Source: Pararhodobacter sp. SW119 (GTDB lineage Bacteria > Pseudomonadota > Alphaproteobacteria > Rhodobacterales > Rhodobacteraceae). From it: a stretch of DNA of 44,784 nucleotides. Where the stretch lies: contig NZ_JADDJF010000026.1 of assembly GCF_017811755.1 (NCBI RefSeq), positions 1 through 44,784 on the forward strand, in the 5' to 3' direction. Positions 6,315 to 38,979 of this stretch are shown here, piece after piece. The notes beneath the pieces are model-generated. The model worked only from the letters and a program-made list of their open reading frames with translations. It was not told the DNA's origin and did no database searches. Both the position numbers and the translations under genes were made by a program. Every line of letters begins with the position of its first letter. Position 1 is the first letter of the stretch.

Positions 6315-6396
6315 GCGCGGGTGCTCAAATTTGAGCACCCGCGCAAGGCACTGGGAATGAACAGAAAATCTGTGCCGTTAACCGCAACGAAACTTT
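6315..6396 (+). repeat. Intergenic element copy A (dyad - GGCACTG - TTAACC)
   Basis: A perfect 30-bp palindrome at 6315-6344 is centred at 6329/6330. Exactly 17 nt after the centre comes GGCACTG (6347-6353), then 22 nt, then CGTTAACC (6376-6383), GCAAC and GAAACTTT (6389-6396). Copies D (11788), B (35227) and C (38906) keep every spacing while the palindrome sequence differs. It lies 10 nt after the M20 peptidase stop codon and 146 nt before the P450 start codon. There is no T-run after the palindrome, so it is not a standard terminator. Confidence 0.8.
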
Positions 6397-6481
6397 CGCA
6401 TGCCCGCGGGCTGCTTCCCCTTGAGGCGACCACGGCGGCTCAGGCGCCAATCCTTTCATTCTTGTTAAAATCACGACTTTT

Positions 6482-6523
6482 ATCGCGTATTATCAATAAT
6501 CTACGCGATCTTTCGCATGCGAA
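6482..6523 (+). promoter_or_regulatory. Operator-like inverted repeats upstream of P450
   Basis: ATCGCGTA (6482-6489) and TACGCGAT (6502-6509) form perfect 8-bp arms around a 12-nt AT-rich centre that itself contains TTAT-CA-ATAA. Next to it is a second palindrome, TTCGCATGCGAA (6512-6523). Both lie within 60 nt of the P450 start codon in unusually AT-rich DNA (6450-6505), as expected of a regulated promoter. CTTTCGCATGC occurs twice, at 6393 and 6510, flanking the segment. The regulator is unknown. Confidence 0.5.
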
Positions 6524-6541
6524 CACGCGGTCGATGGCCGG

Positions 6542-7723
6542 ATGAAACTGCCCCGCATCGCCCAGTCGCCGACCGATCCGGCCTTCGTCCAGAACCCGTA
6601 TCCGTTCTACGACCGGATGCGCGCACTCGGCCCGCTGCTCCACTGGGACGACTACGACCTGCCCTGCGCCGTGTCGCACGCCGCGGTCAACGCCATCCTG
6701 CGCGACCGCCGCTTCGGGCGCGAGCGGCCGGACCGTTCGCCGCCGCCCGATCACCTGCGCCCGTTCTACGCCATCGACGACCATTCGATGCTGGAGCTGG
6801 AACCCCCGCGCCACACCCGGCTGCGCGGGTTGGTGCTGCGCGCCTTCACCGCGCGGCGGATCGCCGGGCTGGAGCCCGAGATCGCGGCGCTGGCGCAGGC
6901 GCTGATCGACCGCTTTCCGGAAGGGCCGGTCGACCTGCTGCCGGCCTTCGCGCAGCAGATCCCCGTCATCGTCATCGCCCGCCTGCTGGGTGTGCCCGAG
7001 GCGATGAAGGACCAGCTTCTGGACTGGTCGCACGCGATGGTGGCGATGTACCAGGCCGGCCGCACCCGCGCGGTGGAGGACCGCGCCGCCTCGGCCGCGC
7101 GGGACTTCGCGGACTTTCTGCGCGGCCATGTGGAGGCGCGGCGTGCGCGTCCGGCCGACGATCTGATCACGCATCTGATCGCGGCCAGGGACGCCGGCGC
7201 GCAGCTGTCGACCGACGAGTTGATCGCCACCTGCGTGCTGCTGCTGAACGCCGGGCACGAGGCGACGGTTCATGCGATCGCTAATGGGATCAAGGTCTTG
7301 CTGGAGGCAGGCGGGCCGCGCGACTGGCTTTCCCCCGGCCGTCTGGACGCCACGGTCGAGGAGATCCTGCGCGTCGATCCGCCGCTGCACCTGTTCACCC
7401 GCATCGCCTACGAGGAGGTCGAGGTGATGGGTCGCCGGATCGCGGCGGGGACCGAGGTGACGTGTTTGCTGGCCGCCGCGGGGCGCGATCCGCGGCACTG
7501 GGAGGCCCCGCATCGGTTCGATCCGGGGCGTATGGCCAAGCCGCATTTGGCCTTTGGCGCGGGGCTGCACTTCTGCCTGGGCGCGCCGCTGGCGCGGCTT
7601 GAGATGCGCACGGCGCTGCCGATCCTGTTCGCGCGGCGGCCGGGTTTGCGGCTGGTCGGGCGGCCCGAATATGCCGACAGTTACCATTTTCACGGGCTGA
7701 CCGCGCTGCGGGTCGAGGGCTGA
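6542..7723 (+). CDS. Cytochrome P450
   Basis: The 393-residue soluble bacterial P450 monooxygenase has the I-helix oxygen-activation motif NAGHEAT (about 238-244), the K-helix ExxR in EEILRVDPP and the heme-thiolate loop FGAGLHFCLGAPLARLE (about 340-356). It starts MKLPRIAQSPTDPAFVQNPYPFYDRMR, typical of bacterial class I enzymes. No ferredoxin or reductase gene is adjacent, so electrons must come from partners elsewhere. Substrate is not predictable. The ribosome site is weak (CCGG directly before ATG). An AT-rich operator-like region upstream suggests it has its own regulated promoter. Confidence 0.92.
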   Translation: MKLPRIAQSPTDPAFVQNPYPFYDRMRALGPLLHWDDYDLPCAVSHAAVNAILRDRRFGRERPDRSPPPDHLRPFYAIDDHSMLELEPPRHTRLRGLVLRAFTARRIAGLEPEIAALAQALIDRFPEGPVDLLPAFAQQIPVIVIARLLGVPEAMKDQLLDWSHAMVAMYQAGRTRAVEDRAASAARDFADFLRGHVEARRARPADDLITHLIAARDAGAQLSTDELIATCVLLLNAGHEATVHAIANGIKVLLEAGGPRDWLSPGRLDATVEEILRVDPPLHLFTRIAYEEVEVMGRRIAAGTEVTCLLAAAGRDPRHWEAPHRFDPGRMAKPHLAFGAGLHFCLGAPLARLEMRTALPILFARRPGLRLVGRPEYADSYHFHGLTALRVEG

Positions 7724-7763
7724 TCGGGGCGGGATCGGGACCCGGAAACGCCGCCGGCAGGGT

Positions 7764-7814
7764 GCTGGCAGGCGTATGGCAAATGGCTGGCAAGCGTATG
7801 GCAAACGTATGGCA
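7764..7814 (+). repeat. 22-bp tandem repeat with CGTATGGCA core
   Basis: Two adjacent 22-nt units (7764-7785 and 7786-7807) differ at two positions, and a third partial copy follows. The core CGTATGGCA occurs at 7773, 7795 and 7806, that is 22 and 11 nt apart, about one and two helical turns. It lies 40 nt after the P450 stop codon. It could be an iterated protein-binding site or a decaying repeat. No gene is visible in 7724-8021. Confidence 0.55.
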
Positions 7815-7887
7815 GTTCCGAACGGTGCGGCAGGGGTTTGGCAACGATTGCGACCGCCCCCGACGGGCTGCGAGTGAGGCGGGAAAT

Positions 7888-7951
7888 GGGGGCGCTGCCC
7901 CCCTCTTGGCTGCACCAATTCACCCCCCGGGATATTTCCGGACAGACGAAG
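7888..7951 (+). repeat. Rhodobacteraceae GGGGGC-hairpin intergenic repeat, copy 1
   Basis: GGGGGC-GCT-GCCCCC (7888-7902) is followed after about 20 nt by ACCCCCC, GGGATATTTCCGGACAGA. The same hairpin plus tail occurs at 31159-31213. From general experience this is a dispersed element found many times in genomes of the family, usually after genes; here it may end the P450 transcript. Confidence 0.6.
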
Positions 7952-8021
7952 TCGGCGGGGGTGGGGCGCGCGGTTGATCTTTCGCGCGGCGCGGGGCAAG
8001 GCACCGGCGGACGATCCGGGG

Positions 8022-8762
8022 ATGGCGATGGAACAGGAAGCAGGCGGGCCGGCGGCGCCGATCATGGTGCTGGTGCGGCCGCAGATGGGCGAGAACATCG
8101 GTGCGGCGGCGCGCGCCATGCTGAATTTCGGGCTGGACCGGATGCGGGTGGTCGCGCCGCGCGATGGCTGGCCAAACCCGAAGGCGGTGGCGATGGCCTC
8201 GGGCGCAGGAAGGGTGCTGGAGGGGGCGGGGCTCTTTGCCGACCTCGACACCGCGCTGGCCGATTGCGACCGGGTCTATGCGACGACGGCGCGCGGGCGC
8301 GAGCTGGTCAAGTCGGTCCTGACCCCCGAGGCGGCGATGGCCGAGGCGCAGGCGCTGTCGGCGGCCGGCGCGCGCGTCGCCGTGCTGTTCGGGCCCGAGC
8401 GCGCGGGGCTGGAGAACGACGATATCGTGCGCGCCAATGCCATCGTGACCGTCCCGGTGAACCCGGAATTCTATTCGCTGAACCTGGCGCAATGCGTGCT
8501 GCTGATGGCCTATGAATGGCAGCGCCAGCAAGGCGTGACGCCGGGTACTGGCCTGGTGCCCGAGCTTGCCAGTCAAGGAGATGTCGCGCGGTTGGGCGAT
8601 CACATGGAGGACCGGCTGGAGGCGGTAAAATTCTTCTTTCCGCCGGACAAGGCGCCGATGATGAAGCGCAACCTGCGAAACATGCTCACGCGCTGGTCGC
8701 TGACCCGTGCGGAGGTTCAGACCCTGCACGGAATCCTGCGACAACTGACCCGGCGGCCGTGA
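8022..8762 (+). CDS. TrmH/TrmJ-type SPOUT RNA methyltransferase
   Basis: The 246-residue product is a SpoU-class 2'-O-methyltransferase that uses SAM to methylate rRNA or tRNA. Motifs of the trefoil-knot fold are present: VLVRPQMGENIGAAARAM near the N-terminus, LFGPERAGLENDDI, and ITVPVNPEFYSLNLAQCVLLMAYEW near residues 145-170. The layout with a C-terminal helical extension matches TrmJ (tRNA position 32) more than TrmH, but the substrate is inferred. The start is uncertain between 8022 and 8028, and no strong ribosome site is seen. An upstream in-frame ATG at 7974 is less likely. Confidence 0.85.
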   Translation: MAMEQEAGGPAAPIMVLVRPQMGENIGAAARAMLNFGLDRMRVVAPRDGWPNPKAVAMASGAGRVLEGAGLFADLDTALADCDRVYATTARGRELVKSVLTPEAAMAEAQALSAAGARVAVLFGPERAGLENDDIVRANAIVTVPVNPEFYSLNLAQCVLLMAYEWQRQQGVTPGTGLVPELASQGDVARLGDHMEDRLEAVKFFFPPDKAPMMKRNLRNMLTRWSLTRAEVQTLHGILRQLTRRP

Positions 8763-8835
8763 CCCCTTTGCCGCCGATGCGCCCTTGATGCCGGCGGGGC
8801 GCGCCTCTAGCTTGCCGCGCGTGTAGGAGTGGACG

Positions 8836-9978
8836 ATGGCAAGACGCCCCATTTTCGAGGAAGTGACCGACAGCGCGCGCCCGGCCGAGGCGCCGCGGGT
8901 GACGATCGAGCGCCCGGCCGGCGCGCGGCGGGCGATCCGGGTCTGGCTGATGGTACTGTTCGCGCTGGTGGTGGCGATCATCGCCGTGGGCGGGCTGACG
9001 CGGCTGACCGGGTCGGGGCTGTCGATCACCGACTGGCGCCCGATCTCGGGCGCGATTCCGCCGCTGACGGCAGCGGACTGGGCGCGCGAATTCGACGCCT
9101 ATCGGCAGATCGACCAGTACCGGCTGCTCAACGAAGGCATGAGCCTGCGCGAATTCCAGGTCATCTTCTGGTGGGAATGGGGGCATCGGCAACTGGGCCG
9201 GCTGATCGGGCTGGTCTGGGCGGCGGGGTTTCTGTGGTTCTGGCTGCGGGGGCAGATCCCGCCGGGCTGGACAGGGCGGCTGCTGGGGCTGGGCGCGCTG
9301 GGGGGGCTGCAGGGCGCGATCGGCTGGTGGATGGTGGCCTCGGGCCTGGGCGAGGGGATGGTGGCGGTGGCCTCCTACCGGCTGGCGGTGCATCTGGGGC
9401 TGGCCTTTGTCATCCTGGGGCTGATCGCCTGGTACGTGATGCGGTTGGGCCGGTCGCAGGCGGCGCTGTTGCAGGCGGGCCGGGCGCGCGAGGGGCGGGC
9501 GTTCCGGATGTCCACGGGGCTGATGCATTTCGCCTTTCTGCAGATCCTGCTGGGCGCGCTGGTCGCCGGGATCGATGCCGGGCGCGGCTATACCGACTGG
9601 CCGCTGATGGCCGGCGGGATCTTTCCGCCGGGGATGTTCGAGCTGGAGCCGGTCTGGCGCAACTTCTTTGAGAATGACGGGCTGGTGCAGTTCATCCACC
9701 GGGTGTCGGGCTATCTGCTGGCGATCTTTGCCGTCGTCGTCTGGATGCGGGCGCGGCGGTCGGGCTTTGCCTCGGTCCGCGGGGCGTTCCATCTGATGCT
9801 GGCGGCGATGGCGGCGCAGATCGTGCTGGGGATCGTGACCGTGCTTTATGCCGCGCCCTGGCCGCTGGCGATCGCGCATCAGTTCCTGGCCGTCGTGCTG
9901 TGGGTGACGATCCTGCGCGCGCGCTTTCTGGCGGGCTATCCCGAGGGTGGGACGATCCGCGGCGGGCGCGCGGCATGA
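8836..9978 (+). CDS. ctaA: Heme A synthase
   Basis: The 380-residue integral membrane protein of the COX15/CtaA family oxidises the C8 methyl of heme O to the formyl of heme A for aa3-type cytochrome oxidase. About eight transmembrane helices are visible, starting at AIRVWLMVLFALVVAIIAVGG, with conserved pieces GGLTRLTGSGLSITDWRPISG, FWWEWGHRQLGRLIG and VQFIHRVSGYLLA, which carry heme-ligand histidines. TAGGAG lies 8 nt before the ATG. The end overlaps the following M32 peptidase gene by 4 nt (ATGA), indicating an operon. The rest of the oxidase-assembly genes are not here. Confidence 0.95.
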   Translation: MARRPIFEEVTDSARPAEAPRVTIERPAGARRAIRVWLMVLFALVVAIIAVGGLTRLTGSGLSITDWRPISGAIPPLTAADWAREFDAYRQIDQYRLLNEGMSLREFQVIFWWEWGHRQLGRLIGLVWAAGFLWFWLRGQIPPGWTGRLLGLGALGGLQGAIGWWMVASGLGEGMVAVASYRLAVHLGLAFVILGLIAWYVMRLGRSQAALLQAGRAREGRAFRMSTGLMHFAFLQILLGALVAGIDAGRGYTDWPLMAGGIFPPGMFELEPVWRNFFENDGLVQFIHRVSGYLLAIFAVVVWMRARRSGFASVRGAFHLMLAAMAAQIVLGIVTVLYAAPWPLAIAHQFLAVVLWVTILRARFLAGYPEGGTIRGGRAA

Positions 9979-11447
9979 CGGCTTATGAACGGCTGATCGA
10001 GCACGACCGCCAGACCCAGGCGCTGGCGCAGGTGATGGGCCGGCTGCGCTGGGACCAGGAGGTGATGATGCCGCGCGGCGCGGGCGCGCAGCGGGCCGAG
10101 GAAATGGCGGCGTTGGAGGCGGTGCTGCACGCCCGCGCCGCGGACCCGCGGATCGGCGAGTGGCTGGAGGCGGCGGCGCCGGGCGACGATGTGGCGGCGG
10201 CCAAGCTGCGCGAAATCCGGCGTGAGTATGACCGCCGCACGCGCGTGCCGGTGGCGCTGGCCACCGAGATCGCGCGCAGCGTGTCGCTGTCGCATGGCAC
10301 CTGGGCCGAGGCGCGGGCGCGCGAGGATGTCGCGCATTTCCTGCCGATGCTGGAGCGCATCGTCGCGCTGCGGCGCGAGGAGGCGGCGGCGTTGGCGCAG
10401 GGCGGCGCGCGCTACGACGCGCTGCTGGACGAATACGAGCCGGGCGCGACCGGCGCGGGGATTGCGGCGATGTTCGACCGGATGCGGCCGCGGCTGCGCG
10501 CGCTGCGCGACCGGGTGCTGGGCGTGGCCGACGCGCCGGCGCCGCTGCTGGGCGAGTTCGAGCGCGCGGCGCAGTTGCGTCTGGCGCGCCAGCTGGCCGA
10601 GGCCTTCGGCTACGATTTTCAGCGCGGGCGGCTGGATCTGGCGGTGCATCCGTTCTCCTCGGGGTCGGGCGACGATGTGCGCATCAGCACCCGCGTGGCC
10701 GAGGACGACCCGTTCAACTGCTTCTATTCGACGATCCACGAGGTCGGCCACGCCGCCTACGAGCAGAACGTCGATCCGGCCTATGCGCTGGGGCCGCTGG
10801 GACGGGGCGCGTCGATGGGCGTGCACGAAAGCCAGTCGCGGCTTTACGAGAACCAGATCGGCCGGTCGCGCGCGTTCTGCGGCTGGCTTTTCGAGCGGAT
10901 CCGCGCGGAGTTCGGCGATTGCGGGATCGAGGGGACCGAGGCGTTCTATGCCACGGTCAACCGGCTGGCCGGCGGCCATATCCGCACCGAGGCCGACGAG
11001 GTGCAGTACAACCTGCACATCATGCTGCGCTTCGATCTGGAGCGCGCGCTGATCGCCGGCGATCTGGCCGTCGCGGAGCTGGAGGGGGCCTGGAACGAGC
11101 GGTTCCGGGCGGATTTCGGCTATCCGGTCGACCGGCCGTCGCACGGGGTGCTGCAGGATGTGCACTGGGCGGTCGGGCTCTTCGGCTACTTCCCGACCTA
11201 CACGCTGGGCAATGTCTATGCGGGCTGCCTGATGCAGGCGATGCGGGCCGATCTGCCGGACCTCGACACGGCGCTGGAGCGGGGCGACCCCGGCCCGGCG
11301 ACCGGCTGGCTGCGGGAACGGGTGCAGGTCCACGGCGCGCGTTTCGAGCCGACCGAGACCGTCGCGCGGGCCTGCGGTTTCGCGCCGCACGAGGGGCCGC
11401 TTCTGGACTATCTGGACGCCAAGTTCGCCGCGATCTACCGGCTTTGA
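9975..11447 (+). CDS. M32 family carboxypeptidase
   Basis: The 490-residue metallocarboxypeptidase is related to Thermus/Pyrococcus carboxypeptidase. The zinc site is plain: STIHEVGHAAYEQN (HExxH, about residues 255-259), with the downstream Glu in SMGVHESQSRLYENQIGRS. Other family blocks include DVRISTRVAEDDP, GGHIRTEADEVQYNLHIMLRF and the C-terminal DVHWAVGLFGYFPTYTLGN. It removes C-terminal residues from cytosolic peptides with broad specificity. The ATG at 9975 overlaps the ctaA stop codon and is preferred to an in-frame ATG at 9900 inside ctaA. Confidence 0.95.
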   Translation: MTAYERLIEHDRQTQALAQVMGRLRWDQEVMMPRGAGAQRAEEMAALEAVLHARAADPRIGEWLEAAAPGDDVAAAKLREIRREYDRRTRVPVALATEIARSVSLSHGTWAEARAREDVAHFLPMLERIVALRREEAAALAQGGARYDALLDEYEPGATGAGIAAMFDRMRPRLRALRDRVLGVADAPAPLLGEFERAAQLRLARQLAEAFGYDFQRGRLDLAVHPFSSGSGDDVRISTRVAEDDPFNCFYSTIHEVGHAAYEQNVDPAYALGPLGRGASMGVHESQSRLYENQIGRSRAFCGWLFERIRAEFGDCGIEGTEAFYATVNRLAGGHIRTEADEVQYNLHIMLRFDLERALIAGDLAVAELEGAWNERFRADFGYPVDRPSHGVLQDVHWAVGLFGYFPTYTLGNVYAGCLMQAMRADLPDLDTALERGDPGPATGWLRERVQVHGARFEPTETVARACGFAPHEGPLLDYLDAKFAAIYRL

Positions 11448-11455
11448 GAGGGGTC

Positions 11456-11758
11456 ATGTCGCCCGAGTTCCAGATCCTGATCATCAACGCGACGTGCCTT
11501 GCCATCGGCTATTTCGGCATCTACCCGGCGCTGGCGCGGAAATCGCTGGTGGCGGTTGGGCTGGGCGATCTGGTGGTCTCGGGGGTGGCGCTGGGAACGG
11601 CGGGGGCGCTGTTCTGGGGCGCGGGGGCCGAGTTCCGGCTGATCGGGCTTTCGGTCAACTGGTTCGTCTTCGCGCTGACCACGCTGATCGCGATGGGGCT
11701 GCCGCTGTTCCTGTGGTTCGCGCGCCGGCACGGACTAGGGCCGGGGGACGATAAGTGA
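11456..11758 (+). CDS. Small three-helix membrane protein, unknown
   Basis: This 100-residue protein has three hydrophobic segments: about 5-25 (ILIINATCLAIGYFGIYPAL), 33-54 (VAVGLGDLVVSGVALGTAGALF) and 66-88 (LSVNWFVFALTTLIAMGLPLFLW). It ends with a short polar tail. The start lies 8 nt after the M32 peptidase stop, with GAGAGGGG overlapping that junction, so it belongs to the ctaA-M32 operon. I do not recognise a named family. The gene is followed 29 nt later by the palindrome of element D. Confidence 0.75.
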   Translation: MSPEFQILIINATCLAIGYFGIYPALARKSLVAVGLGDLVVSGVALGTAGALFWGAGAEFRLIGLSVNWFVFALTTLIAMGLPLFLWFARRHGLGPGDDK

Positions 11759-11787
11759 CGCGATTATTCTGGCTAGACGGCAAAGGT

Positions 11788-11861
11788 GTCCACGCGTGGA
11801 CGGTTGCGCATGGCATTGATTTCCATTGATTATTTCCGGAAATTAACCGCTATGAAACTTC
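11788..11861 (+). repeat. Intergenic element copy D
   Basis: The palindrome GTCCACGCGTGGAC (11788-11801) has its centre 17 nt before GGCATTG (11812-11818); 22 nt follow, then AATTAACC (11841-11848), GCTAT and GAAACTT (11854-11860). All spacings equal those of copies A, B and C. In this copy the position corresponding to ACG/AAG before AAACTT is ATG, and it opens a 12-codon reading frame. Confidence 0.8.
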
Positions 11862-11890
11862 TGGCCTTGGCGGTTCTCATTGCCGTCTGA
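11852..11890 (+). pseudogene. Possible decayed small lipoprotein
   Basis: ATGAAACTTCTGGCC opens a frame reading MKLLALAVLIAV, then TGA at 11888. Without that stop the frame would continue LACGPVGG, completing a lipobox of the small Rhodobacteraceae lipoprotein type. Either this is a lipoprotein gene killed by a point mutation or the similarity is chance. The remaining 11891-11950 shows nothing else. Confidence 0.25.
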
Positions 11891-11950
11891 TTGGCATGTG
11901 GTCCTGTGGGCGGGCCGCGCCGAGGAGGGCGCGGCGGCGCGACCGGCGCC

Positions 11951-12271
11951 TCAGGTCGGCTGCAAGAACGGCGCGGGTGTCAGGAGCGTGTTGACCTGAC
12001 TGACCAGGTAGCCGGATTCGGCGCTTTTCTTCAGGTATGCCGCCCAGTCGGGGTCCGCGGCCATGGCTGCGCGTTTCGCGGCCCTGTCGGCGGCATCGTC
12101 GTAGGCCCAGACATGGACATACGAATTCACGTCGCCGGTTTCGACCCGTCCGTAGAGGACCGGCGCGCCGAGATGGCGCAACTGGACGGGCCACCCGTGG
12201 TCCTCGTAGAGCTTCATTTGCCGGGCGATCGTGCCGGGGCGGCAGGTGTAGGTTCGGTGGTCGTAGAGCAT
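11951..12271 (-). CDS. NIPSNAP family protein
   Basis: The 106-residue product is a dimeric alpha/beta-barrel (ferredoxin-like) protein of the NIPSNAP family. It starts MLYDHRTYTCRPGTIARQMKLYEDHG and contains the typical ending of the first half, SYVHVWAYDDAADRAAKRAAMAAD, followed by DWAAYLKK. The molecular function is unknown for most bacterial members. The ATG at 12271 is used because the family begins with this strand and AAGGGA lies about 11 nt upstream; the open frame extends to 12373 without similarity. It lies downstream of the SDR gene on the same strand. Confidence 0.85.
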   Translation of the reverse strand: MLYDHRTYTCRPGTIARQMKLYEDHGWPVQLRHLGAPVLYGRVETGDVNSYVHVWAYDDAADRAAKRAAMAADPDWAAYLKKSAESGYLVSQVNTLLTPAPFLQPT

Positions 12272-12437
12272 GGAGCCGGATTTCCCTTGCTTGTAGTGGC
12301 GTCTGCGCGGGCCATCTTCCTGATCGCACGTCGGGCGGGCGAGCGCCAGCGCGCCGGAGGAAGTCGACGCCACCGGACCAGCCGGCGGACCCCGTGCCCT
12401 ATCGCACGTCCTGCCGGGGAAGCGGCGGCCCGTCGGG

Positions 12438-13109
12438 TCAGTTCACCGGCATGAGGTGAACTTCGCGCACCTCTGCCCGCGGGTCCTGGCTCAGGGCGAA
12501 CATCACCGCCGCCGCCACGTCCTCGGGCTGCAGCTTGTCGGGCTTGGCCTCGTCGAAGAAGGGGGTGTCGACCATACCCGGCGAGATGACGGTGCAGCGG
12601 CCGCCCCATTCGCGCATTTCTTCGGACATGTTTCCGCCGTAGCCGTGCACGAACCACTTGGTGGCGCCGTAGATCGAGCCCTTGATGTGCCGCCGTCCCG
12701 CTGCGGAGCCGGTCAGCAAGAGGTGACCCCGGGTCTTGCGCAGTTCCGGCAGCGCGGCCTTTGCGGTATGCAGGACGCCCATCACGTTCGCGTCCACCAC
12801 CTGGCGCCATTCCTGCGGGTCGCCGTTTTCGGTGCCGGGCCGGGTGATGCCCTGACCGGCATTGGCGAAAGCCGCGTGCAACGCGCCGAACTGCGCGACC
12901 GCCTTGGCGACCGCGGCCTCCATCGCGGCAAAGTCGGCGACGTCCCCCGGCAGTACGATCGCGGCGTCGCCCAGGTCCTCGGCAAGGGCCTCGAGCTTGG
13001 CGGTCGAGCGCGCGACCAGCGCCACGTTCCAGCCCGCGGCCACAGCCGCCCGCGCCGTTGCCGCGCCGATACCCGACGACGCGCCGGTGATGAGAAGCGT
13101 TTGAGCCAT
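12438..13109 (-). CDS. Short-chain dehydrogenase/reductase
   Basis: The 223-residue classical SDR has a Rossmann fold. The cofactor motif TGASSGIG (about residues 7-14), the NAG motif in AFANAGQG, the catalytic Ser in LLTGSAAG and YxxxK in YGATK are all present. The ARSTAKLEAL segment after strand 2 fits an NADP-preferring enzyme. It ends with EVHLMPVN, like the YdfG/3-hydroxy acid dehydrogenase-like group. AGGGAG lies 7 nt before the ATG. Substrate is unknown. It is followed 166 nt later by the NIPSNAP gene in the same direction. Confidence 0.88.
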   Translation of the reverse strand: MAQTLLITGASSGIGAATARAAVAAGWNVALVARSTAKLEALAEDLGDAAIVLPGDVADFAAMEAAVAKAVAQFGALHAAFANAGQGITRPGTENGDPQEWRQVVDANVMGVLHTAKAALPELRKTRGHLLLTGSAAGRRHIKGSIYGATKWFVHGYGGNMSEEMREWGGRCTVISPGMVDTPFFDEAKPDKLQPEDVAAAVMFALSQDPRAEVREVHLMPVN

Positions 13110-13224
13110 TCGTGTTCTCCCTTTCATGGGTTTCCCCTTCAGGTGGGGCGCGCGCGTTGCGAGGCAAACGGTTGCCGCAGTCGGTGTCCGGGCGAGCGGT
13201 GCTGGTTCTGCGCCCTCCGCCTCG

Positions 13225-13809: not shown

Positions 13810-14126
13810 GTCGATCCCCATCGCCGTCAAGTGCCACGCACCCCCAATGCCCCCGGTGCTAGCTTGCTGCACCGGCCGTGTCGAGTGGCCGGTCGGTGCC
13901 CGATGGCGTGTTCAGCGTCCCGGTCCGTGGTCCTGACCTGAAGCTCGCCACCGGTGGCGGCGCGGAAGGGCACTGGCAACCGCCTGGGCGCGGTGGCCGG
14001 GAACGCCACCTGCGTTCTCGGTGGACTTCCGCCGACACGGTTCTGTGACCGCCGCGCCCATGCCATTGCCCTGGCACTTCGGGTTACAGCCCGCGCCATG
14101 TAACGGACGCTTCACCGGAGAGATCG

Positions 14127-14684: not shown

Positions 14685-14722
14685 CGGGCGGGATACAGTA
14701 GCGGGGACGGTGTCGGGTCCTG

Positions 14723-31142: not shown

Positions 31143-31158
31143 GCCCGACCGACAGGTC

Positions 31159-31213
31159 GCGGGGGGCTGTCTGCCCCCCGCACCCCCGAGGATACTTTCA
31201 GACAGAAAATGAG
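31159..31213 (+). repeat. Rhodobacteraceae GGGGGC-hairpin intergenic repeat, copy 2
   Basis: GCGGGGGGC-TGTCT-GCCCCCCGC (31159-31181) is followed by ACCCCCGAGGATACTTTCAG and ACAGAAAATGAG. It matches copy 1 at 7888. It lies between the binding-protein gene and the ligase gene, 16 nt after the stop, where it could attenuate read-through or stabilise the upstream mRNA end. Confidence 0.65.
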
Positions 31214-31244
31214 CAGCCGAGGGCTGCGACGAGACGAGGGACAG

Positions 31245-32612
31245 ATGCCCGGAAACCTGACGCTGGATGCGCTGAAAGAGGCCTTGGAGGCCGGCGAGAT
31301 CGACACCGTGATCGTGGCGGCGATCGACATGCAGGGCCGCCTGATGGGCAAGCGCTTTCATGCCGCCCATTTCGTCGACAGCGGCTGGCGCGAGACGCAT
31401 TGCTGCAATTACCTGCTGACCGTCGACATGGAAATGCACACCGTGCCCGGCTATGCCGCGGCAAGCTGGGAAAAGGGCTACGGCGATTACGTCGTGAAGC
31501 CCGACCTGGACACCCTGCGCCGCGTGCCCTGGCTGGAGGGGACGGCGCTGGTCCTGTGCGACCTTCTGGATCACCACACGCATGAGGAGGTGCCGCAATC
31601 GCCCCGCGCGATCCTTAAGCGGCAGGTGGCGCGCGCGCGCGCGATGGGCTTCGAGCCGATGATGGCGACCGAGCTGGAGTTCTACGTCTTCGAGAACAGC
31701 TACGAGGCATTGCGCGACGACGGCGTGGGCGGGCTCAGGCCGATCTCGGGCTATAACGAGGACTACCATATCTTCCAGACGAGCAAGGAAGAGCCGTTGA
31801 TGCGCGCGCTGAGAAACGGTCTATATGGCGCTGGGATCATAGTCGAAAACACGAAGGGTGAGGCGGATTCCGGCCAGGCCGAGGTCAATGTGCGCTACAC
31901 CGATGCGCTGCAGATGGCCGATGCGCATGTCATCATCAAGAACGCCACCAAGGAGATCGCGCACAGCCTTGGCAAGTCGGTCACCTTCATGGCGAAATAC
32001 GCGACCGAGAAGGCGGGATCGTCAAGTCATGTGCATCAGTCGCTTTGGTCCTTGGACGGGGCGGCGGCGTTTCACGACCCTGAGGTCCCGCACGGCATGT
32101 CCGTGGCGATGAAGCACTTTCTGGCCGGGCAGTTGGCGCATGTGCGCGACCTGACCCTGTTCCTCGCGCCCTATGTCAACAGCTACAAGCGGTTCACCGT
32201 GGGGCTTTTCGCGCCGACCAAGGCCGTCTGGTCGCGCGACAACCGGACCGCGGGTTTCCGGATCTGTGGCGAGAACACGAAGGCCGTGAGGGTTGAATGC
32301 CGGATCGGGGGGGCGGATCTGAACCCCTATCTGACCTGCGCCGCGCTGCTGGCCGCGGGGCTGGACGGGATCGAGAAGAAGATGGAACTGGAGCCTGAAC
32401 TGCGCGGCGACATGTACAACGCCGAAAACGCGCGCGAGATCCCGACCACCCTGCGCGAGGCCGCGGATCTGGCCGCGACCTCCACCTGGTTGCGCGGCGC
32501 CTTCGGGGACGAGGTGGTCGATCACTACGTCCACGCCGCGCGCTGGGAAGTTTCCGAATCCGAACGCGCGGTGACGGACTGGGACGTGCGACGGGGCCTT
32601 GAACGCGCCTGA
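31245..32612 (+). CDS. Glutamine synthetase-like gamma-glutamylamide ligase
   Basis: The 455-residue protein is a type III-like (PuuA/GlnA3-like) member of the glutamine synthetase family. Catalytic-domain landmarks: ATELEFYVFE, QAEVNVRY, SSHVHQSLW, YVNSYKRF and RVECRIGGADLNPYL. The start HLTL... is replaced by a short N-terminal beta-grasp (residues about 1-100). Family members join glutamate to an amine such as putrescine, isopropylamine or ethanolamine using ATP. The start at 31245 has GAGGG 5 nt upstream. A short AT-richer patch (31811-31862) sits in an otherwise GC-rich gene. Confidence 0.88.
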   Translation: MPGNLTLDALKEALEAGEIDTVIVAAIDMQGRLMGKRFHAAHFVDSGWRETHCCNYLLTVDMEMHTVPGYAAASWEKGYGDYVVKPDLDTLRRVPWLEGTALVLCDLLDHHTHEEVPQSPRAILKRQVARARAMGFEPMMATELEFYVFENSYEALRDDGVGGLRPISGYNEDYHIFQTSKEEPLMRALRNGLYGAGIIVENTKGEADSGQAEVNVRYTDALQMADAHVIIKNATKEIAHSLGKSVTFMAKYATEKAGSSSHVHQSLWSLDGAAAFHDPEVPHGMSVAMKHFLAGQLAHVRDLTLFLAPYVNSYKRFTVGLFAPTKAVWSRDNRTAGFRICGENTKAVRVECRIGGADLNPYLTCAALLAAGLDGIEKKMELEPELRGDMYNAENAREIPTTLREAADLAATSTWLRGAFGDEVVDHYVHAARWEVSESERAVTDWDVRRGLERA

Positions 32613-32676
32613 AGCTTGAACCAGTAGAGCAGGGAAAGAACACGCCGCCGGTGGTCCCGGCGGCAGAAGGGGTGAC

Positions 32677-34065
32677 ATGACACGCATGATCCAATGCATC
32701 TCGCCCGTGGATGGGCGGGTCCATGCCGAGAGGCCGGCGATGCCGCTTGAGGACGTGCAGGCGGCGGTCGCTCGGGCGCAGGCGGCGCAGACGGGCTGGG
32801 CGGCGCTGCCGCTGGATGACCGCATCGCGCGCGTCAAGTCGGGCATCGCGGTGCTGAACGGCATGAAGGAGCGCGCGGTCGAGGAACTGGCCTGGCAGAT
32901 GGGCCGGCCCACGCGCTACGGCGGCGAATTCGGCGGCGTGAACGAGCGTACCGACTACATGGCCGGGATCGCCGCCGCGGCGCTGACGCCGCAGCTCGTC
33001 GAGGAGTCGGACCGCTTTCGCCGGCATATCGCGCGCGAACCGGTGGGCGTGGTCTTCGTCATCGCCCCCTGGAACTACCCCTACATGACGGCGATTAATA
33101 CCATCGTGCCCGCGCTGATCGCCGGAAATTCGGTGATGCTGAAGCACGCGTCGCAGACCCTGCTGGTGGGCGAGCATCTGGCCGAAGCGATGCATGCCGG
33201 CGGCGTGCCCGAGGATGTCTTCCAGAACATCGTGGTGACGCACGACACCACCGAGGCGCTGATCAGGGCGCGCAGCTTCGGTTTCGTGAACTTCACCGGC
33301 TCGGTCGGCGGCGGACAGGCGATCGAGCGGGCCGCTGCCGGCACCTTCACCGCGACGGGGCTGGAACTGGGGGGCAAGGATCCGGGGCTGGTCTGCGCCG
33401 ATGCCGACCTCGACGCGGCGGTGGAGGGGCTGATGGACGGTGCGATGTTCAACGCCGGCCAGTGCTGCTGCGGGATCGAGCGGATCTATGTCCACGAGAG
33501 CCTCTATGACGCCTTCGTCGAAAAGGCGGTCGCCTGGGTCCACAAGCTGAAGCTGGGCGATCCCTTCGACCCCGAGACGACGCTGGGACCGATGGCGAAT
33601 GTCCGCTTCGCCCGCACCGTGCGCGATCAGGTGGCCGAGGCGGTCGCCGCCGGCGCGAAGGCGCTGATCGACCCCGCGCGGTTTCCGGCCGATGACGGCG
33701 GCGCCTATCTGGCGCCGCAGGTGCTGGTCGATGTCGATCATTCGATGCGCGTGATGCGCGAGGAAAGCTTCGGTCCTGTGGTCGGCATCATGAAGGTCGC
33801 GAGCGACGACGAGGCGATCCGTCTGATGAACGATTCCCCCTACGGCCTGACCGCGTCGATCTGGACCGCCGATCCCGACCGCGCCGAGGCGATCGGGGCG
33901 CGGTTGCAGACCGGCACGGTGTTCATGAACCGCTGCGACTATCTGGATCCCGCGCTCTGCTGGACCGGATGCAAGGACACCGGGCGGGGTGCGGCGCTCT
34001 CCACCCTCGGCTATCACTCGGTCACGCGGCCGAAATCCTACCATCTGAAGAAGGTGATCAAATGA
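32677..34065 (+). CDS. Aldehyde dehydrogenase
   Basis: The 462-residue NAD(P)-dependent enzyme of the ALDH superfamily carries IAPWNYPYMTAIN (cofactor-binding Asn), FTGSVGGG, ELGGKDPGLV (general-base Glu) and the catalytic Cys in NAGQCCCGIERIY, where three consecutive cysteines occur. It oxidises an aldehyde to the carboxylate, probably the product of the adjacent alcohol dehydrogenase. AAGGGG lies 6 nt upstream. The last codons overlap the alcohol dehydrogenase start by 4 nt, so both are co-translated. Confidence 0.94.
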   Translation: MTRMIQCISPVDGRVHAERPAMPLEDVQAAVARAQAAQTGWAALPLDDRIARVKSGIAVLNGMKERAVEELAWQMGRPTRYGGEFGGVNERTDYMAGIAAAALTPQLVEESDRFRRHIAREPVGVVFVIAPWNYPYMTAINTIVPALIAGNSVMLKHASQTLLVGEHLAEAMHAGGVPEDVFQNIVVTHDTTEALIRARSFGFVNFTGSVGGGQAIERAAAGTFTATGLELGGKDPGLVCADADLDAAVEGLMDGAMFNAGQCCCGIERIYVHESLYDAFVEKAVAWVHKLKLGDPFDPETTLGPMANVRFARTVRDQVAEAVAAGAKALIDPARFPADDGGAYLAPQVLVDVDHSMRVMREESFGPVVGIMKVASDDEAIRLMNDSPYGLTASIWTADPDRAEAIGARLQTGTVFMNRCDYLDPALCWTGCKDTGRGAALSTLGYHSVTRPKSYHLKKVIK

Positions 34066-35213
34066 AAGTTCCGAAAGCCAACTGGTCCTATCCGACGCTG
34101 GTGAAGTTCGGCCTCGGCCGGATTTCGGAACTGGCCGATCATTGCCGCGCGGTCGGCATGACAAAGCCGCTGCTGGTCACCGACAAGGCGCTGGCGACCC
34201 TGCCGATCACCGCCCAGGCGCTGGACGTGCTGGAGGGGGGCGGTCTGGGCAGGGCAGTGTTTTCCGGCGTCGACGCCAACCCGACCGAGATCAACATGGA
34301 AGACGGGCTCAAGGCCTATCGCACGGGCGGGCACGATGGCGTCGTGGCCTTTGGCGGCGGCTCGGCGCTGGATCTGGCGAAGATGGTCGCGCTGATGATC
34401 GACCAGCCCGTGCCGGTCTGGGATCTGGAGGACGTTGGCGACTGGTGGACGCGTGCCAACCCCGACACAATTGCGCCCATCGTCGCCGTGCCGACCACGG
34501 CGGGTACCGGGTCCGAGGTCGGGCGCGCCGGGGTTCTGACCAACTCGGCCACGCATACCAAGAAGATCATCTTCCACCCGAAGCTGATGCCCGCCGTCAC
34601 CATCTGCGACCCGGAACTGACCGTGGGCATGCCGCGGGCGATCACCGCGGGGACCGGGATGGACGCGCTCGCCCATTGTCTGGAGGCGTATTGCACGACC
34701 TACTACCACCCGATGAGCGAGGGTATCGCGCTGGAGGGCATGCGGCTGGTGATGGAGAACCTGTCGCGCGTCTATCACCGCCCCGACGACCTGGAGGCCC
34801 GCGCCCACATGATGAGCGCGGCGGCGATGGGCGCGGTCGGCTTCCAGAAAGGCCTGGGCGCGATCCATGCGCTCAGCCATCCGATCGGCGCGGTTTTCAA
34901 CACCCATCATGGCACGACCAACGCGGTCGTCATGCCCTGGGTGCTGGACTTCAACCGCGAGGTGATCGAGGCGAAGATCGGGCGCATGGCGGCCTATCTG
35001 GGCATCGATGGCGGGTTCGACGGGTTCCGTGCGCGGATCATGGAGATGCGCGCCGAGTTCGCCATCCCCGAGCACCTGACCGCGCTGGGGATCGACGCGG
35101 GGCGGATCGACGAGCTGACCGAGATGGCGCTGGCCGACCCGACCGCGGGGGCGAACCCCCGCAAGATGGCAAAAGAAAACACGCGTGCTTTGCTGGAGGC
35201 TTGTTTCGGCTAG
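34062..35213 (+). CDS. Iron-containing alcohol dehydrogenase
   Basis: The 383-residue group III alcohol dehydrogenase has the NAD-binding GGGSALDLAK (about 100-109), PTTAGTGSEV, and metal ligands in GTGMDALAHCLEAY and KGLGAIHALSHPIGAVFNTHHG (key residues: the two His of ALSHP and THHG). It oxidises primary alcohols to aldehydes, or the reverse. ATG at 34062 overlaps the aldehyde dehydrogenase stop. It ends the catabolic operon; the stop codon is 13 nt before element B. Confidence 0.94.
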   Translation: MKVPKANWSYPTLVKFGLGRISELADHCRAVGMTKPLLVTDKALATLPITAQALDVLEGGGLGRAVFSGVDANPTEINMEDGLKAYRTGGHDGVVAFGGGSALDLAKMVALMIDQPVPVWDLEDVGDWWTRANPDTIAPIVAVPTTAGTGSEVGRAGVLTNSATHTKKIIFHPKLMPAVTICDPELTVGMPRAITAGTGMDALAHCLEAYCTTYYHPMSEGIALEGMRLVMENLSRVYHRPDDLEARAHMMSAAAMGAVGFQKGLGAIHALSHPIGAVFNTHHGTTNAVVMPWVLDFNREVIEAKIGRMAAYLGIDGGFDGFRARIMEMRAEFAIPEHLTALGIDAGRIDELTEMALADPTAGANPRKMAKENTRALLEACFG

Positions 35214-35226
35214 TCTGATGGCGGGG

Positions 35227-35301
35227 CGCACAAGTTTGTGCGTTTCGACAAGGCATTGACAAGAAACGTATAATCGGCGTCGTTAACCGCAAAGAAACTT
35301 T
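35227..35301 (+). repeat. Intergenic element copy B
   Basis: CGCACAAGTTTGTGCG (35227-35242) is a dyad with one mismatch at the centre pair. Its centre is 17 nt before GGCATTG (35252-35258); 22 nt follow, with TATAAT at 35269-35274, then CGTTAACC (35281-35288), GCAAA and GAAACTTT (35294-35301). Spacings equal those of copies A, C and D. Confidence 0.8.
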
Positions 35302-35433
35302 TGGCGCGCGCGCTTTGCGGGTGCGCCGCCGCGCCGTCCGCCTTGTGTGGCGGGCGCGGGTGTCGCGCTGCGCGTTTCGCGATTTCGGCGCCACCATCGG
35401 GGCCGAACGCGAGCGATTGCGCCCGAACGGGGC

Positions 35434-35495
35434 TTGCGCCGACCCTGTGCCCGGCTATAACCCGCCTCGATTTGCGCGCCGCCATCCGGCGGCGC
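35434..35495 (+). promoter_or_regulatory. Putative carB promoter and leader hairpin
   Basis: TTGCGC (35434-35439) and TATAAC (35456-35461) are 16 nt apart, a plausible housekeeping promoter. The predicted leader contains a perfect 8-bp hairpin with loop ATCC (GCGCCGCC/GGCGGCGC, 35476-35495) ending 24 nt before the carB start codon. No T-run follows it, so it is more likely translational or stability control than a terminator. Confidence 0.4.
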
Positions 35496-35519
35496 CAAAA
35501 TGTCTGAACGGGGTCCGGA

Positions 35520-38500
35520 ATGCCGAAAAGAACCGATATCAGATCCATCATGATCATCGGGGCGGGACCCATCGTCATCGGTCAGGCCTGCGAATTCGAC
35601 TACTCCGGCGCGCAAGCCTGCAAGGCGCTGCGCGAGGAAGGCTATCGCGTCATCCTGGTCAATTCGAACCCGGCGACGATCATGACCGACCCGGGCCTGG
35701 CGGACGCCACCTATATCGAACCGATCACGCCCGAGATCGTCGCCAAGATCATCGAGGCCGAGCGCCCCGATGCGCTGCTGCCGACGATGGGCGGGCAGAC
35801 GGGCCTGAACACCGCCTTGTCGCTGGCCGACATGGGCGTGCTGGACAAGTTCGGCGTCGAACTGATCGGCGCCAACCGGCAGGCCATCGAAATGGCCGAG
35901 GATCGCAAGCTCTTCCGCGAGGCGATGGACCGGATCGGGCTGGAAAACCCCCGCGCCACCATCATTGCCGCCCCTAAACGCGCCGACGGCCGGTTCGACA
36001 TCGCTGCCGGCGTCGTCGAGGCGATGAACGCTATCGAAGAGGTCGGCCTGCCGGCCATCATCCGCCCCGCCTATACGCTGGGCGGCACCGGCGGCGGCGT
36101 CGCCTACAACCGCGACGATTACGAGGCGATCTGCCGCTCGGGCCTCGACGCCTCGCCCGCGGGGCAGATCCTGATCGACGAATCCCTTCTGGGCTGGAAG
36201 GAATTCGAGATGGAGGTGGTGCGTGACCGGGCCGACAACGCCATCATCGTCTGCGCCATCGAGAACGTCGATCCGATGGGGGTGCACACTGGCGACTCGA
36301 TCACCGTGGCGCCGGCGCTGACCCTGACCGACAAGGAATACCAGATGATGCGCAACGGCTCCATCGCCGTGCTGCGCGAGATCGGGGTGGAGACCGGCGG
36401 GTCGAACGTGCAATGGGCGGTCAACCCCGAAGACGGCCGCATGGTCGTGATCGAGATGAACCCGCGCGTCAGCCGCTCCTCGGCGCTGGCCTCCAAGGCG
36501 ACTGGTTTCCCCATCGCCAAGATCGCCGCGAAACTGGCCGTGGGCTACACGCTGGATGAGCTGGACAACGACATCACCAAGGTCACGCCGGCCAGTTTCG
36601 AACCCTCCATCGATTATGTCGTCACCAAGATCCCGCGCTTTGCGTTCGAGAAATTCCCCGGCGCCAAGGCCGAACTGACCACCGCCATGAAATCGGTGGG
36701 CGAGGCGATGGCCATCGGCCGGACCTTCCACGAAAGCGTGCAGAAGGCGCTGGCCTCGATGGAGACGGGGCTGACGGGCTTTGACGAGATCAGGATCCCC
36801 GGCGCCCCCGACAAGGCCGCGGTCATCAAGGCGATCAGCGCCCAGACCCCGGACCGGCTGCGGCTGATCGCCCAGGCCATGCGCGAGGGGCTTTCGGATG
36901 ACGAGATCGGGCACGCCACGGCGTTTGATCCGTGGTTCCTGGCCCGCATCCGCGAGATCGTGGAGACCGAGGCGCAGGTCCGCGCCGAAGGGCTGCCCGA
37001 AACCGCAGAGGGGATGCGCGCGCTCAAGATGATGGGCTTCACCGATGCGCGGCTCGCGACCCTCACCGGGCAGGTCGAAGCCGACATCCGTCGTTCGCGC
37101 CTGCGTCGCGGCGTGACCGCCGTCTTCAAGCGCATCGATACCTGCGCCGCCGAGTTCGAGGCGCAGACGCCCTACATGTATTCGACCTACGAGGCGCCCG
37201 CGATGGGCGGCGTCGAGTGCGAGGCGCGCCCCTCGGACCGCAAGAAGGTCGTGATCCTGGGCGGCGGGCCCAACCGGATCGGGCAGGGGATCGAATTCGA
37301 CTATTGCTGCTGCCATGCCTGCTTTGCGCTGACCGACGCGGGCTACGAGACGATCATGGTCAACTGCAACCCCGAGACCGTCTCGACCGACTACGACACC
37401 TCGGACCGGCTTTATTTCGAGCCGCTGACGCTGGAGCACGTGCTGGAGATCCTGCGGGTGGAGCAGCAGAACGGCACCCTGCACGGCGTCATCGTCCAGT
37501 TCGGCGGCCAGACGCCCCTGAAGCTGGCCAACGATCTGGAGGCCGAGGGGATCCCGATCCTCGGCACCTCGCCCGACGCCATCGACCTGGCCGAGGATCG
37601 CGAGCGGTTCCAGAGGCTCCTGAATGACTTGGGGCTGAAGCAGCCGGTCAACGGCATCGCGTCCTCTGAGGCGCAGGCGATGGAGATCGCCGAGACCGTC
37701 GGCTTCCCGCTGGTGATCCGCCCCTCCTACGTGCTCGGCGGGCGGGCGATGGAGATCGTGCGCGACCGCGACCATCTGAAGCGCTACATCCAGAATGCCG
37801 TCGAGGTCTCGGGAAAGAACCCGGTGCTGCTGGACAGCTACCTGTCGGGCGCGATCGAGGTCGATGTCGATGCGCTGTCGGACGGCCAGCGCGTGCATGT
37901 CGCCGGGATCATGGAACATATCGAGGAGGCGGGCGTGCATTCGGGCGACAGCGCCTGCTGCCTGCCGCCGCATTCGCTGACCGATGCGACTGTGGCGGAA
38001 CTGAAGCGCCAGACCGAACTGATGGCGCGTGGCCTCAATGTCGTCGGGCTGATGAACGTGCAGTTCGCGATCAAGGACGGCGACATCTATGTGCTGGAGG
38101 TCAACCCACGCGCCAGCCGTACCGTGCCCTTCGTCGCCAAGGCGACCGACAGCGCCATCGCGTCCATCGCCGCGCGGCTGATGGCGGGCGAGCCGCTGGA
38201 CCAGTTCCCGCTGCGCGAGCCGTATCCGGCGGGTGTCGGCCCCGATACCGAGTTGCCGCTTGCCGATCCGCTGACGCTGGCCGATCCGATCACGCCCTGG
38301 TATTCGGTCAAGGAGGCCGTGCTGCCCTTCGCGCGCTTCCCCGGCGTCGACACGCTGCTGGGCCCCGAGATGCGCTCCACCGGCGAGGTGATGGGCTGGG
38401 ACCGGACCTTTGCGCTGGCGTTCCTGAAGGCGCAGATCGGCGCCGGCACGATCCTGCCCGAGGGCGGGCGGGTCTTCATCTCGATCCGCGACGCCGACAA

Positions 38501-38849
38501 GACCGAGGCGATGGGGCGGGCGGCGCGAGAGTTGTCGGGCATGGGGTTCGAACTGGTGGCGACCGGCGGCACGGCGAAATGGCTGGGCGCGCAGGGGATC
38601 AAGACAGTTCCCGTCAACAAGGTCTACGAGGGGCGGCCGAACATCGTCGACCGGCTGAAGAACGGCGACATCGCGCTGGTCTTCAACACGACCGAGGGCG
38701 CGCAGGCCATCGCCGACAGCCGCGAGATCCGTACCAACGCGCTGATGGACAAGATCGCCTATTTCACCACCGCTGCCGGCGCTATCGCCGCGGTCGCGGC
38801 CATGCAGGCCCGCAAGGAAGGGATCGGCGTGCGGACCCTGCAGGGCTGA
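35520..38849 (+). CDS. carB: Carbamoyl-phosphate synthase large subunit
   Basis: The 1109-residue product makes carbamoyl phosphate for arginine and pyrimidine synthesis together with CarA (not in this window). Two homologous ATP-grasp halves are visible: [28 protein letters not shown] at the N-terminus (core GAGPIVIGQ) and [19 protein letters not shown] near 578. Further blocks are [27 protein letters not shown] and [22 protein letters not shown]. The C-terminal MGS-like allosteric domain (about 960-1109) carries FISIRDADK and [13 protein letters not shown]. The length is a little above the usual 1070-1100. It is transcribed alone here. Confidence 0.98.
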
Positions 38850-38905
38850 GGTTTGCGGCCCTGAAGGTGCGCGGCCCGCCCGGCCAAGGCGGCGGCGCGT
38901 CCGGT

Positions 38906-38979
38906 GTGCGCATGCGCACGCTTTCGCAAGACATTGTAATAGATGGTTTAATCTGGGCCGTTAACCGCAACGAAAGGTT
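38906..38979 (+). repeat. Intergenic element copy C
   Basis: GTGCGCATGCGCAC (38906-38919) is centred 17 nt before GACATTG (38930-38936); 22 nt follow, with TTTAAT at 38947-38952, then CGTTAACC (38959-38966), GCAAC and GAAAGGTT (38972-38979). Spacings are identical to copies A, B and D. It lies 56 nt after the carB stop and faces a convergent gene, so it has no obvious downstream target. Confidence 0.8.

Follow-up and report, generated by a model that had tools for sequence, protein, structure and literature searches.

A Dispersed Intergenic Repeat of Pararhodobacter sp. SW119 in Which the Symmetry of a Dyad Is Kept while Its Sequence Varies

The stretch of DNA analysed here, 44,784 nucleotides from contig NZ_JADDJF010000026.1 of the alphaproteobacterium Pararhodobacter sp. 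SW119 (in the following, the window), carries several copies of an intergenic repeat of about 80 bp. It is probably a dynamic, dispersed, RIB/REP-like element that is organised by IHF and laid out as a three-part nucleoprotein site with a hypervariable dyad; with it, the REP/RIB repeats of other bacteria seem to gain a new relative. Each element consists of a dyad of 14–18 bp with the half-site GYNCRM, about 35 bp of DNA with one IHF-like site in fixed orientation and phase, and the 22-bp core TTAACCGCAAYGAAACTTTCG. This architecture recurs at fixed spacing, the arms of the dyad covary, the copies lie at the 3' ends of genes and mostly between convergent genes, they number a hundred or more in the genome, and related species differ in the sites occupied. 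The observation made in an earlier note, which described four copies with unrelated dyads in the window, is confirmed and is larger than first reported.

Architecture and Copy Number

The host genome, G000, comprises 4.5 Mb in 192 contigs, the window being contig 112. A search of this genome with the core TTAACCGCAACGAAAC, allowing two mismatches, returned 112 matches, 56 on either strand, compared with a single match for the reversed control (0 + 1). In the 107 rows with 75 nt of upstream sequence, the best dyad was centred 48 nt upstream in 83 and 49 nt upstream in 11, and all seven dyad pairs were formed in 77, which was the case for 8 of 2140 shuffled stretches. Two findings had been named beforehand as adverse to the element, a lack of excess dyads at this distance and copies that are only recent identical duplicates free of covariation; neither was encountered.

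From the first 100 core-match places in G000, 99 were extracted (C124:4107 was left out), together with 20 stretches from each of two related species, G205 and G206, and one short extra locus. A relaxed core then yielded 146 copies (G000, 101; G205, 24; G206, 21). Since the copies were picked by the core, the counts for dyad and IHF site are not forced by the search. A dyad, defined by at least four of seven pairs near position −48, is present in 143 of the 146 copies from the three species. The distance from its centre to TTAACC is 48 nt in 125 copies, 49 nt in 15, and 46, 47 and 50 nt in one each. The three copies without a counted dyad are L023, where the dyad is shifted, L058, a minus-strand false core that is the reverse side of a true core, and L079, a core standing alone. 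The last of these, on a 3.4-kb contig (C21), reads TTTACCGCAATGAAAC. Within the core, every letter of TTAA-N7-GAAA is kept in 91–94 of 94 copies, these having been chosen by that very core.

Covariation of the Dyad Arms

The central claim of the earlier note, that symmetry is kept while sequence changes, is supported by covariation among the copies as well as by double changes at sites shared between species. In pairs 2–7, counted from the centre, Watson-Crick pairs occupy 839 of 858 cells; four cells are G-T, none is A-C, and 15 hold other mismatches. Pair 5 makes use of all four types (C-G 57, G-C 43, T-A 26, A-T 11). Pairing weakens outward, pair 8 being formed in 115 and pair 9 in 84 of 143 copies, while the centre pair is complementary in 117. 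For an alignment of 50 rows, the covariation score was 0.67, compared with 0.25 in shuffles and at most 0.11 in slid versions, and 121 double-change cells were counted against 43.6 in shuffles. The highest mutual information falls on pairs that span the dyad or are located inside it, or on neighbours near positions −5 to −1, and no second helix was found by mutual information over the copies. A second stem, CATTG/CAATG, was rejected for lack of covariation (position −28 with core position 10, mutual information 0.04; maximum of three column shuffles, 0.17). One distant pair, position −48 with core position 10, slightly exceeds the shuffle maximum of 0.17 with a value of 0.20 and is taken for a trace of shared descent.

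The sequence of the half-site is itself constrained, GYNCRM being found in 141 of 143 copies. These 143 copies hold 30 different half 7-mers, and in 101 of them the central 14-mer is a perfect palindrome, most often GTCCGCATGCGGAC (15 copies). The inner six letters read AAATTT in 36 copies, GCATGC in 34, ACGCGT in 30, AAGGTT in 13, and AAGCTT in 7; these forms and the outer four letters occur in rather free combination.

Strict Watson-Crick covariation with near-zero wobble argues for pairing of DNA rather than RNA, or for copying of one arm onto the other. If copying by template switching were the whole explanation, the symmetry would be mutational, and selection would act on half-site, IHF site, and core only. 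This would account for the exclusive use of Watson-Crick pairs even at the centre, where a hairpin needs no pair, and it agrees with the G-T or A-C kind, which a single transition would leave behind, making up only 4 of the 19 mismatched cells in pairs 2–7. The near-universal persistence of the symmetry would, however, demand a high copying rate, and in a related element of the genome G065, described below, the centre pair is non-complementary in 7 of 16 copies. To our knowledge, no other two-fold protein sites behave in this way, and a purely mutational origin is considered rather improbable.

The IHF-Like Site

In the spacer between dyad and core, information is concentrated on C-AA-N4-TTGAT-W, which is the IHF consensus WATCAANNNNTTR read on the opposite strand. 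With up to two mismatches at its nine fixed positions, the consensus is found at centre+14 in 129 of 143 copies and is exact in 25 of them; the next best offset gives 8, the opposite orientation at centre+14 gives 1, and shuffled spacers give 0.8 on average and 4 at most. IHF sites carry an A/T tract on one side, and this is matched here by an A+T content of 68% in the tract flank, compared with 49% on the other side and 25% farther out. The footprint of IHF, about 35 bp, would take up just the distance that separates the dyad from the core. The genome has a gene for IHF-alpha (160 bits against a cut-off of 120).

Two earlier proposals are to be seen in this light. The GGCATTG block, which had been listed among the shared parts of the copies, belongs to the IHF-like site. 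The −10 box that had been suspected at spacer positions 11–16 did not hold up: over 94 copies this stretch is only A-rich (A at −12 in 60, A at −11 in 83, A or T at −10 in 93), and the T in first place is not conserved. A promoter with a −10 box was rejected, there being no conserved hexamer; the stretch is the A/T-rich flank of the IHF-like site.

Genomic Location and the Question of an RNA Element

Neighbouring genes were called with a simple codon-usage gene finder, and gene names such as carB, M20 peptidase, and groEL were read off the sequence rather than taken from a family search. The number of IHF mismatches per window copy, the likeness to terminators, the occupancy of sites, and several counts for G065 were judged by eye. 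Among 101 rows with at most two core mismatches, including the false core L058, 70 are situated in convergent gaps and one in a divergent gap; 15 lie between genes that run in the direction of the element, nine between two opposite genes, and six at contig ends without a neighbour. A gene on the same strand precedes the element in 87 of the 101 rows and is followed by an opposite gene in 70, a same-strand gene in 15, and a contig end in two. As a baseline, 5 of the 36 neighbouring gene pairs in the window are convergent. In agreement with the earlier description of the copies as lying just 3' of a plus-strand stop codon, the dyads of copies A, D, B, and C start 16, 27, 12, and 54 nt past the stop, respectively; outside the window the distance is mostly 2–90 nt.

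Such a position, together with strict pairing, would also be expected of an RNA element, be it a hairpin in the 3' untranslated region, a terminator, or a small-RNA gene, with its stem under selection for pairing; copy A, moreover, folds better than all of 200 shuffles. We nevertheless hold this to be very unlikely. Copies D, B, and C are equalled by 35, 119, and 164 of 200 shuffles, respectively, and a T run directly after the dyad is not conserved (T at −39 in 67, at −38 in 61, and at −37 in 39 of 94 copies). An ordinary-looking terminator with a T run stands between groEL and the element at L005, and others follow the element at L017 and L088, so that a terminator role is unlikely for these three copies. 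Of the options for selection on pairing put forward in the earlier note, cruciform and RNA hairpin, the latter is therefore weakened by the rarity of G-T pairs (4 of 858 cells), the shuffle-like folds of three window copies, and the separate terminators. A scan of the window against Rfam 15 gave only a tRNA above the gathering score.

The consensus of a CtrA site is TTAA-N7-TTAA; the core, reading TTAA-N7-GAAA, lacks the second TTAA box. The right ends of three related elements in other genomes, L317 in G260 and L319 and L327 in G034, do read TTAA-N7-TTAA and are CtrA-box-like by eye.

Turnover and Constraint between Species

An 18-base core has 99 matches in G000, 77 in G205, and 37 in G206; in the remaining 15 of the 18 genus members no match with up to two mismatches was found. 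In 197 genomes from other genera of the family, eight have one hit with two mismatches, the reversed control giving nine hits in eight genomes. Window copies A and C are common to G205, copy B is common to G205 and G206, and copy D is found in G000 only of these three. The orthologues of copy B in G000, G205, and G206 have three different dyads, GCGCACAAGTTTGTGCGT, GTGCTCAAACTTGAGCAC, and GCGTCCGCCAGCGGACGC. Within 230 nt past the stops of carB and of the M20 peptidase gene, the element was not seen in 13 other genus members each (for the M20 peptidase, a fourteenth reads N); several genus members have terminator-like hairpins after carB. Of 13 further G000 sites, 11 were looked up in G205 and 6 in G206; one site in either species has the full element in the corresponding position, the copy in G206 being cut by a contig end, and at two G205 sites and one G206 site there is no more than a remnant or a neighbouring copy in inverted orientation. 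At 12 loci of G203 and G211, one of them represented by 228 nt only, the element was found at none.

A different element was seen after the carB or M20 peptidase gene at L232 and L253 of G204 and at L252 of G211. It consists of two adjoining palindromes of varying sequence, with TTCGAA- or TTTGAAA-like centres and AACGCG...CGCGTT-like arms (by eye).

Fourteen comparisons could be made at shared sites, including three within the trio of copy B, one between the two relatives, and one (L047) with orthology given by one flank. The core differs by 9.8%, a value lowered by the fact that ten of the relatives' copies were themselves found by their core; the spacer differs by 51.9%, the IHF consensus positions by 31.7%, and the N4 within them by 64.3%. 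Among 98 dyad pair positions, 57 are the same, 28 have changed in both arms and still pair, and 13 are unpaired in one partner, four of these stemming from the shifted dyad of L023. Three copies compared with G000 were found by their flanks (B in G205, B in G206, and L015 in G205); among these, 6 of 48 core positions and 28 of 57 spacer positions are different. Turnover and constraint thus both seem real, and the constraint points to a function at the site itself or to copies being renewed time and again.

According to another explanation, the repeat is a host site for chromosome architecture or gene ends, as RIB/BIME is for IHF and gyrase, maintained by selection for the benefit of the cell and immobile now, with the species differences reflecting loss and slow birth. 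The lower divergence of the core at shared sites, flank-found copies included, the convergent-gene location, and the three of four window copies held in common with G205 are compatible with it. It is less easily reconciled with the absence of the full element from 10 of the 11 sites looked up in G205 and from 5 of the 6 looked up in G206, although some of these loci are rearranged, and with the 15 of 18 genus members that have no core match, so that this core is dispensable to the cell. On balance, an immobile host site is regarded as a possible, if somewhat unlikely, alternative.

Related Elements in Other Genera

Two covariance models were used for a wider search. Model R1 was built from 50 copies, window copies B, C, and D among them and copy A outside; model R2 had copy A in its training set, with further copies from G000, G205, G206, G065, G118, and G260. 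The best 18 candidates per genome being scored, R1 had matches in 10 of 248 genomes of the family, including G000, and R2 in 14 of 295. On this basis 18 matches were obtained in G118, and 16 and 18 in G065. Both genomes show the left half of the element, dyad plus IHF-like site, at the same spacing, and each represents a sister family. The G118 family is uniform, all 18 loci (L350–L367) carrying the palindrome TTGTGCACATGTGCACAA and an IHF-like site; 15 of 19 such palindromes, two of which are in L365, are followed by another GTGCAC after about 45 nt. All 16 G065 loci (L334–L349) have fixed arms, GTCCAC/GTGGAC, around a centre pair that is AT in seven, AC in seven, and GC in two; GTGGAC occurs again about 45 nt on in six of the 16, and GTTAACC or GTTAACG is found at about +60 in eight. 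The single hits in G040 and G048 have a recognisable core, and other single hits with weak E values may be due to chance. G118 and G065 each keep to one arm sequence, and the multitude of palindromes is special to the G000 clade.

A retained arm sequence that recurs about 45 nt on, and a half-site GYNCRM that is also seen, by eye, in G118, G065, G260, and G034, would be in line with swappable operators, each palindrome serving a different paralogous dimeric regulator within one frame. However, the variety of half 7-mers in the 143 copies would require many paralogs, and the sites are at gene ends instead of promoters. In addition, an AAA half is never joined to a CGT/TGC half, and single-letter mismatches are few; independent halves could allow such a combination. 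Swappable operators are hence thought improbable.

A scan of 80 carB neighbourhoods from named genomes (703 kb, 256 dyads, both strands) found no perfect dyad with the IHF consensus at offset 14, two at offset 13, one at 15, and single cases at seven or eight other offsets; with one element per 35–45 kb, the scan has little power.

Copies in the Window

All four copies reported earlier are present where the earlier note placed them, on the plus strand, and in each of them the dyad centre lies 48 nt upstream of TTAACC, in accordance with the common architecture that had been claimed. A core scan of the window with up to three mismatches gave exactly these four matches; shuffles gave 0.01 on average, and none of 100 reached four. 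Model R1 recovers the four copies with E values of 2.6e-19 or better and detects in addition a fifth copy that the earlier note had missed (Table 1); the same five are recovered by R2. In the fifth copy the core is altered, and the dyad centre and the IHF-like site are better preserved than the core; the core of its counterpart in G205 is closer to the consensus. The carB protein of the window has at most 86% identity (best segment) to those of Rhodobacterales genomes and 85% to that of Paracoccus denitrificans.

Table 1. Parts of the repeat copies in the window (mismatches refer to the nine fixed positions of the IHF consensus).
Feature	Position	Strand	Remark
Copy A, dyad GTGCTCAAATTTGAGCAC	6321..6338	+	
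Copy A, IHF-like site	6344..6356	-	minus-strand reading WATCAANNNNTTR; 3 of 9 differ, weakest of the four (by eye)
Copy A, conserved core TTAACCGCAACGAAACTTTCGC	6378..6399	+	
Fifth copy, decayed	6447..6527	-	tail-to-tail with copy A; R1 E value 3.3e-5
Copy D, dyad GTGTCCACGCGTGGACGG	11786..11803	+	central 14 letters form a perfect palindrome
Copy D, IHF-like site	11809..11821	-	1 of 9 differs (by eye)
Copy D, core	11843..11864	+	
Copy B, dyad GCGCACAAGTTTGTGCGT	35226..35243	+	
Copy B, IHF-like site	35249..35261	-	1 of 9 differs (by eye)
Copy B, core	35283..35304	+	
Copy C, dyad GTGTGCGCATGCGCACGC	38904..38921	+	
Copy C, IHF-like site	38927..38939	-	2 of 9 differ (by eye)
Copy C, core	38961..38982	+	

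Short near-tandem repeats resembling CGTATGGCAAA were observed in gene-end regions of two species, namely, at about 7760–7815 of the window and at L292 and L270 of G206, with the form CGTAGGACT in L270.

Comparison with Known Repeats

The nearest working likeness is that to the RIB/BIME-1 repeats of E. coli, on which a study by Boccard and Prentki (1993) reportedly bears, to go by its title. The element has an IHF site inside the repeat, as judged by consensus matches at one offset in 129 of 143 copies, and a location at gene 3' ends in 87 of 101 rows. Fourteen tail-to-tail pairs spaced 31–137 nt apart (eight in G000, four in G205, and two in G206) resemble BIMEs. As far as described in the pertinent sections of PMC2817692, RIB/BIME-1 shares the many intergenic copies, the position at gene 3' ends, the palindrome beside an IHF site, and the inverted pairs. 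In BIME-1, however, two oppositely oriented REPs flank the IHF site, each with a fixed imperfect palindrome and a GTAG-type head, whereas the present element has one short variable dyad, one IHF-like site, and one long core, without such a head; there is one dyad per site, and a single unit has its own site in 129 of 143 cases. Since neither the paired REPs around the site nor the GTAG-type head is found, the element is not a member of RIB/BIME-1.

With REP/RAYT systems the repeat has in common more than 100 copies per genome, an extragenic location, and a palindromic structure. The REPs detected in PMC2817692 all have a GT(A/G)G head according to its relevant passages, and the same is stated in those of PMC8266576. 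The 8 nt before the dyad contain GTAG in 3, GTGG in 8, and CGTC in 1 of 143 copies, and in place of an imperfect palindrome 101 of 143 central 14-mers are perfect. An association with RAYT or IS200 genes was not found; the PF01797 matches in G000 amount to one IS200-like gene and one fragment, on another contig, with no element adjoining. At L225 (G000, C35), an IS200-like Y1 transposase gene is located near a nusG-like gene, and the element does not adjoin it.

Other small repeats share individual traits. The 155-bp form of the Neisseria Correia element is an intergenic repeat whose IHF site binds IHF in vitro, as reported in the part of PMC2229807 that deals with it. As MITEs, Correia elements have terminal inverted repeats; inverted ends are not apparent by eye in the consensus here. 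Br-REP1 of Bradyrhizobium is an alphaproteobacterial repeat of palindromic structure that occupies about 200 intergenic sites and is reported from the overlapping 3' untranslated regions of a convergent gene pair, but it has one fixed 20-bp palindrome plus flanking palindromes, and the sections of PMC5082802 that describe it contain neither an IHF site nor a core. A resemblance of GTTAACC and ...GAAAC to integron attC sites or CRISPR repeats was considered and dropped.

No such element has been described for Rhodobacterales in the literature searched, which included the pertinent parts of PMC12306157 and PMC3733652 and left out most subscription journals. The view of the earlier note that no described element has this form is upheld to that extent, with the restriction that RIB/BIME-1 shares much of the plan.

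Proposed Mechanism and Implications

We infer that the element is bound by IHF and by a protein shared between dyad and core. IHF would bind the segment and bend it into a U-turn, by which the dyad would be laid beside the core, and one protein or complex could then contact both together. This protein would read the dyad mostly by its self-complementarity, as a cruciform or a single-strand hairpin, and the letters would consequently be free to change provided that both arms change. Copies would be gained and lost through a machinery acting in trans, and those retained would be under selection for core, IHF site, and pairing. The kept copies may serve the host, as RIBs may do in supercoiling, in the nucleoid, or at gene ends, or they may serve the element only. 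A more far-reaching version is put forward as a tentative and on present grounds unlikely idea: a recombinase or architectural complex placed over the IHF bend would recognise self-complementarity instead of sequence, act on an extruded cruciform or a single-strand hairpin, and mend one arm according to the other, by which palindromes would be rewritten on the spot without loss of the site's function.

Several points weigh against the REP/RIB-like, IHF-organised element proposed here. The binding of IHF is predicted from a consensus, which window copy A misses at three of nine positions, and a protein binding dyad or core was not found. Complementarity at the dyad centre (117 of 143), which a hairpin does not need, fits better with double-stranded symmetry or arm-to-arm copying than with a hairpin alone, and two of five covariation measures in the 50-row alignment are within the range of shuffles (double-change pairs, 7, reached by 422 of 500; pair types, 17, reached by 218 of 500). 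Concerning mobility, several of the sites looked up in relatives have a differing neighbour gene too, so that absence at such sites need not mean an empty site. A clean empty site, from which a target duplication could be read, was not seen; in the one letter-by-letter comparison of a filled with an empty site, about 155 bp are extra, which is more than the element. PF01797 is confined to G000 and G207 among the 18 genus members, no Y1 transposase being found in the G205 and G206 assemblies, which are 92% and 82% complete. The recovery by core of ten of the 14 relatives' copies, mentioned above, belongs here as well.

Summarizing, the repeat appears as a Rhodobacterales counterpart of the REP/RIB-like repeats with a clean three-part plan. 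It offers a natural experiment, as in a hundred or more copies the sequence of the palindrome varies and its symmetry is constant. By this, the reading of a site as hairpin or as duplex, the role of IHF at gene ends, and the correction of one arm from the other in short palindromes become testable, and it could be seen how a palindrome changes its letters and yet remains palindromic. If recognition by self-complementarity is true, this would be a class of repeats that inherits pairing rather than letters.

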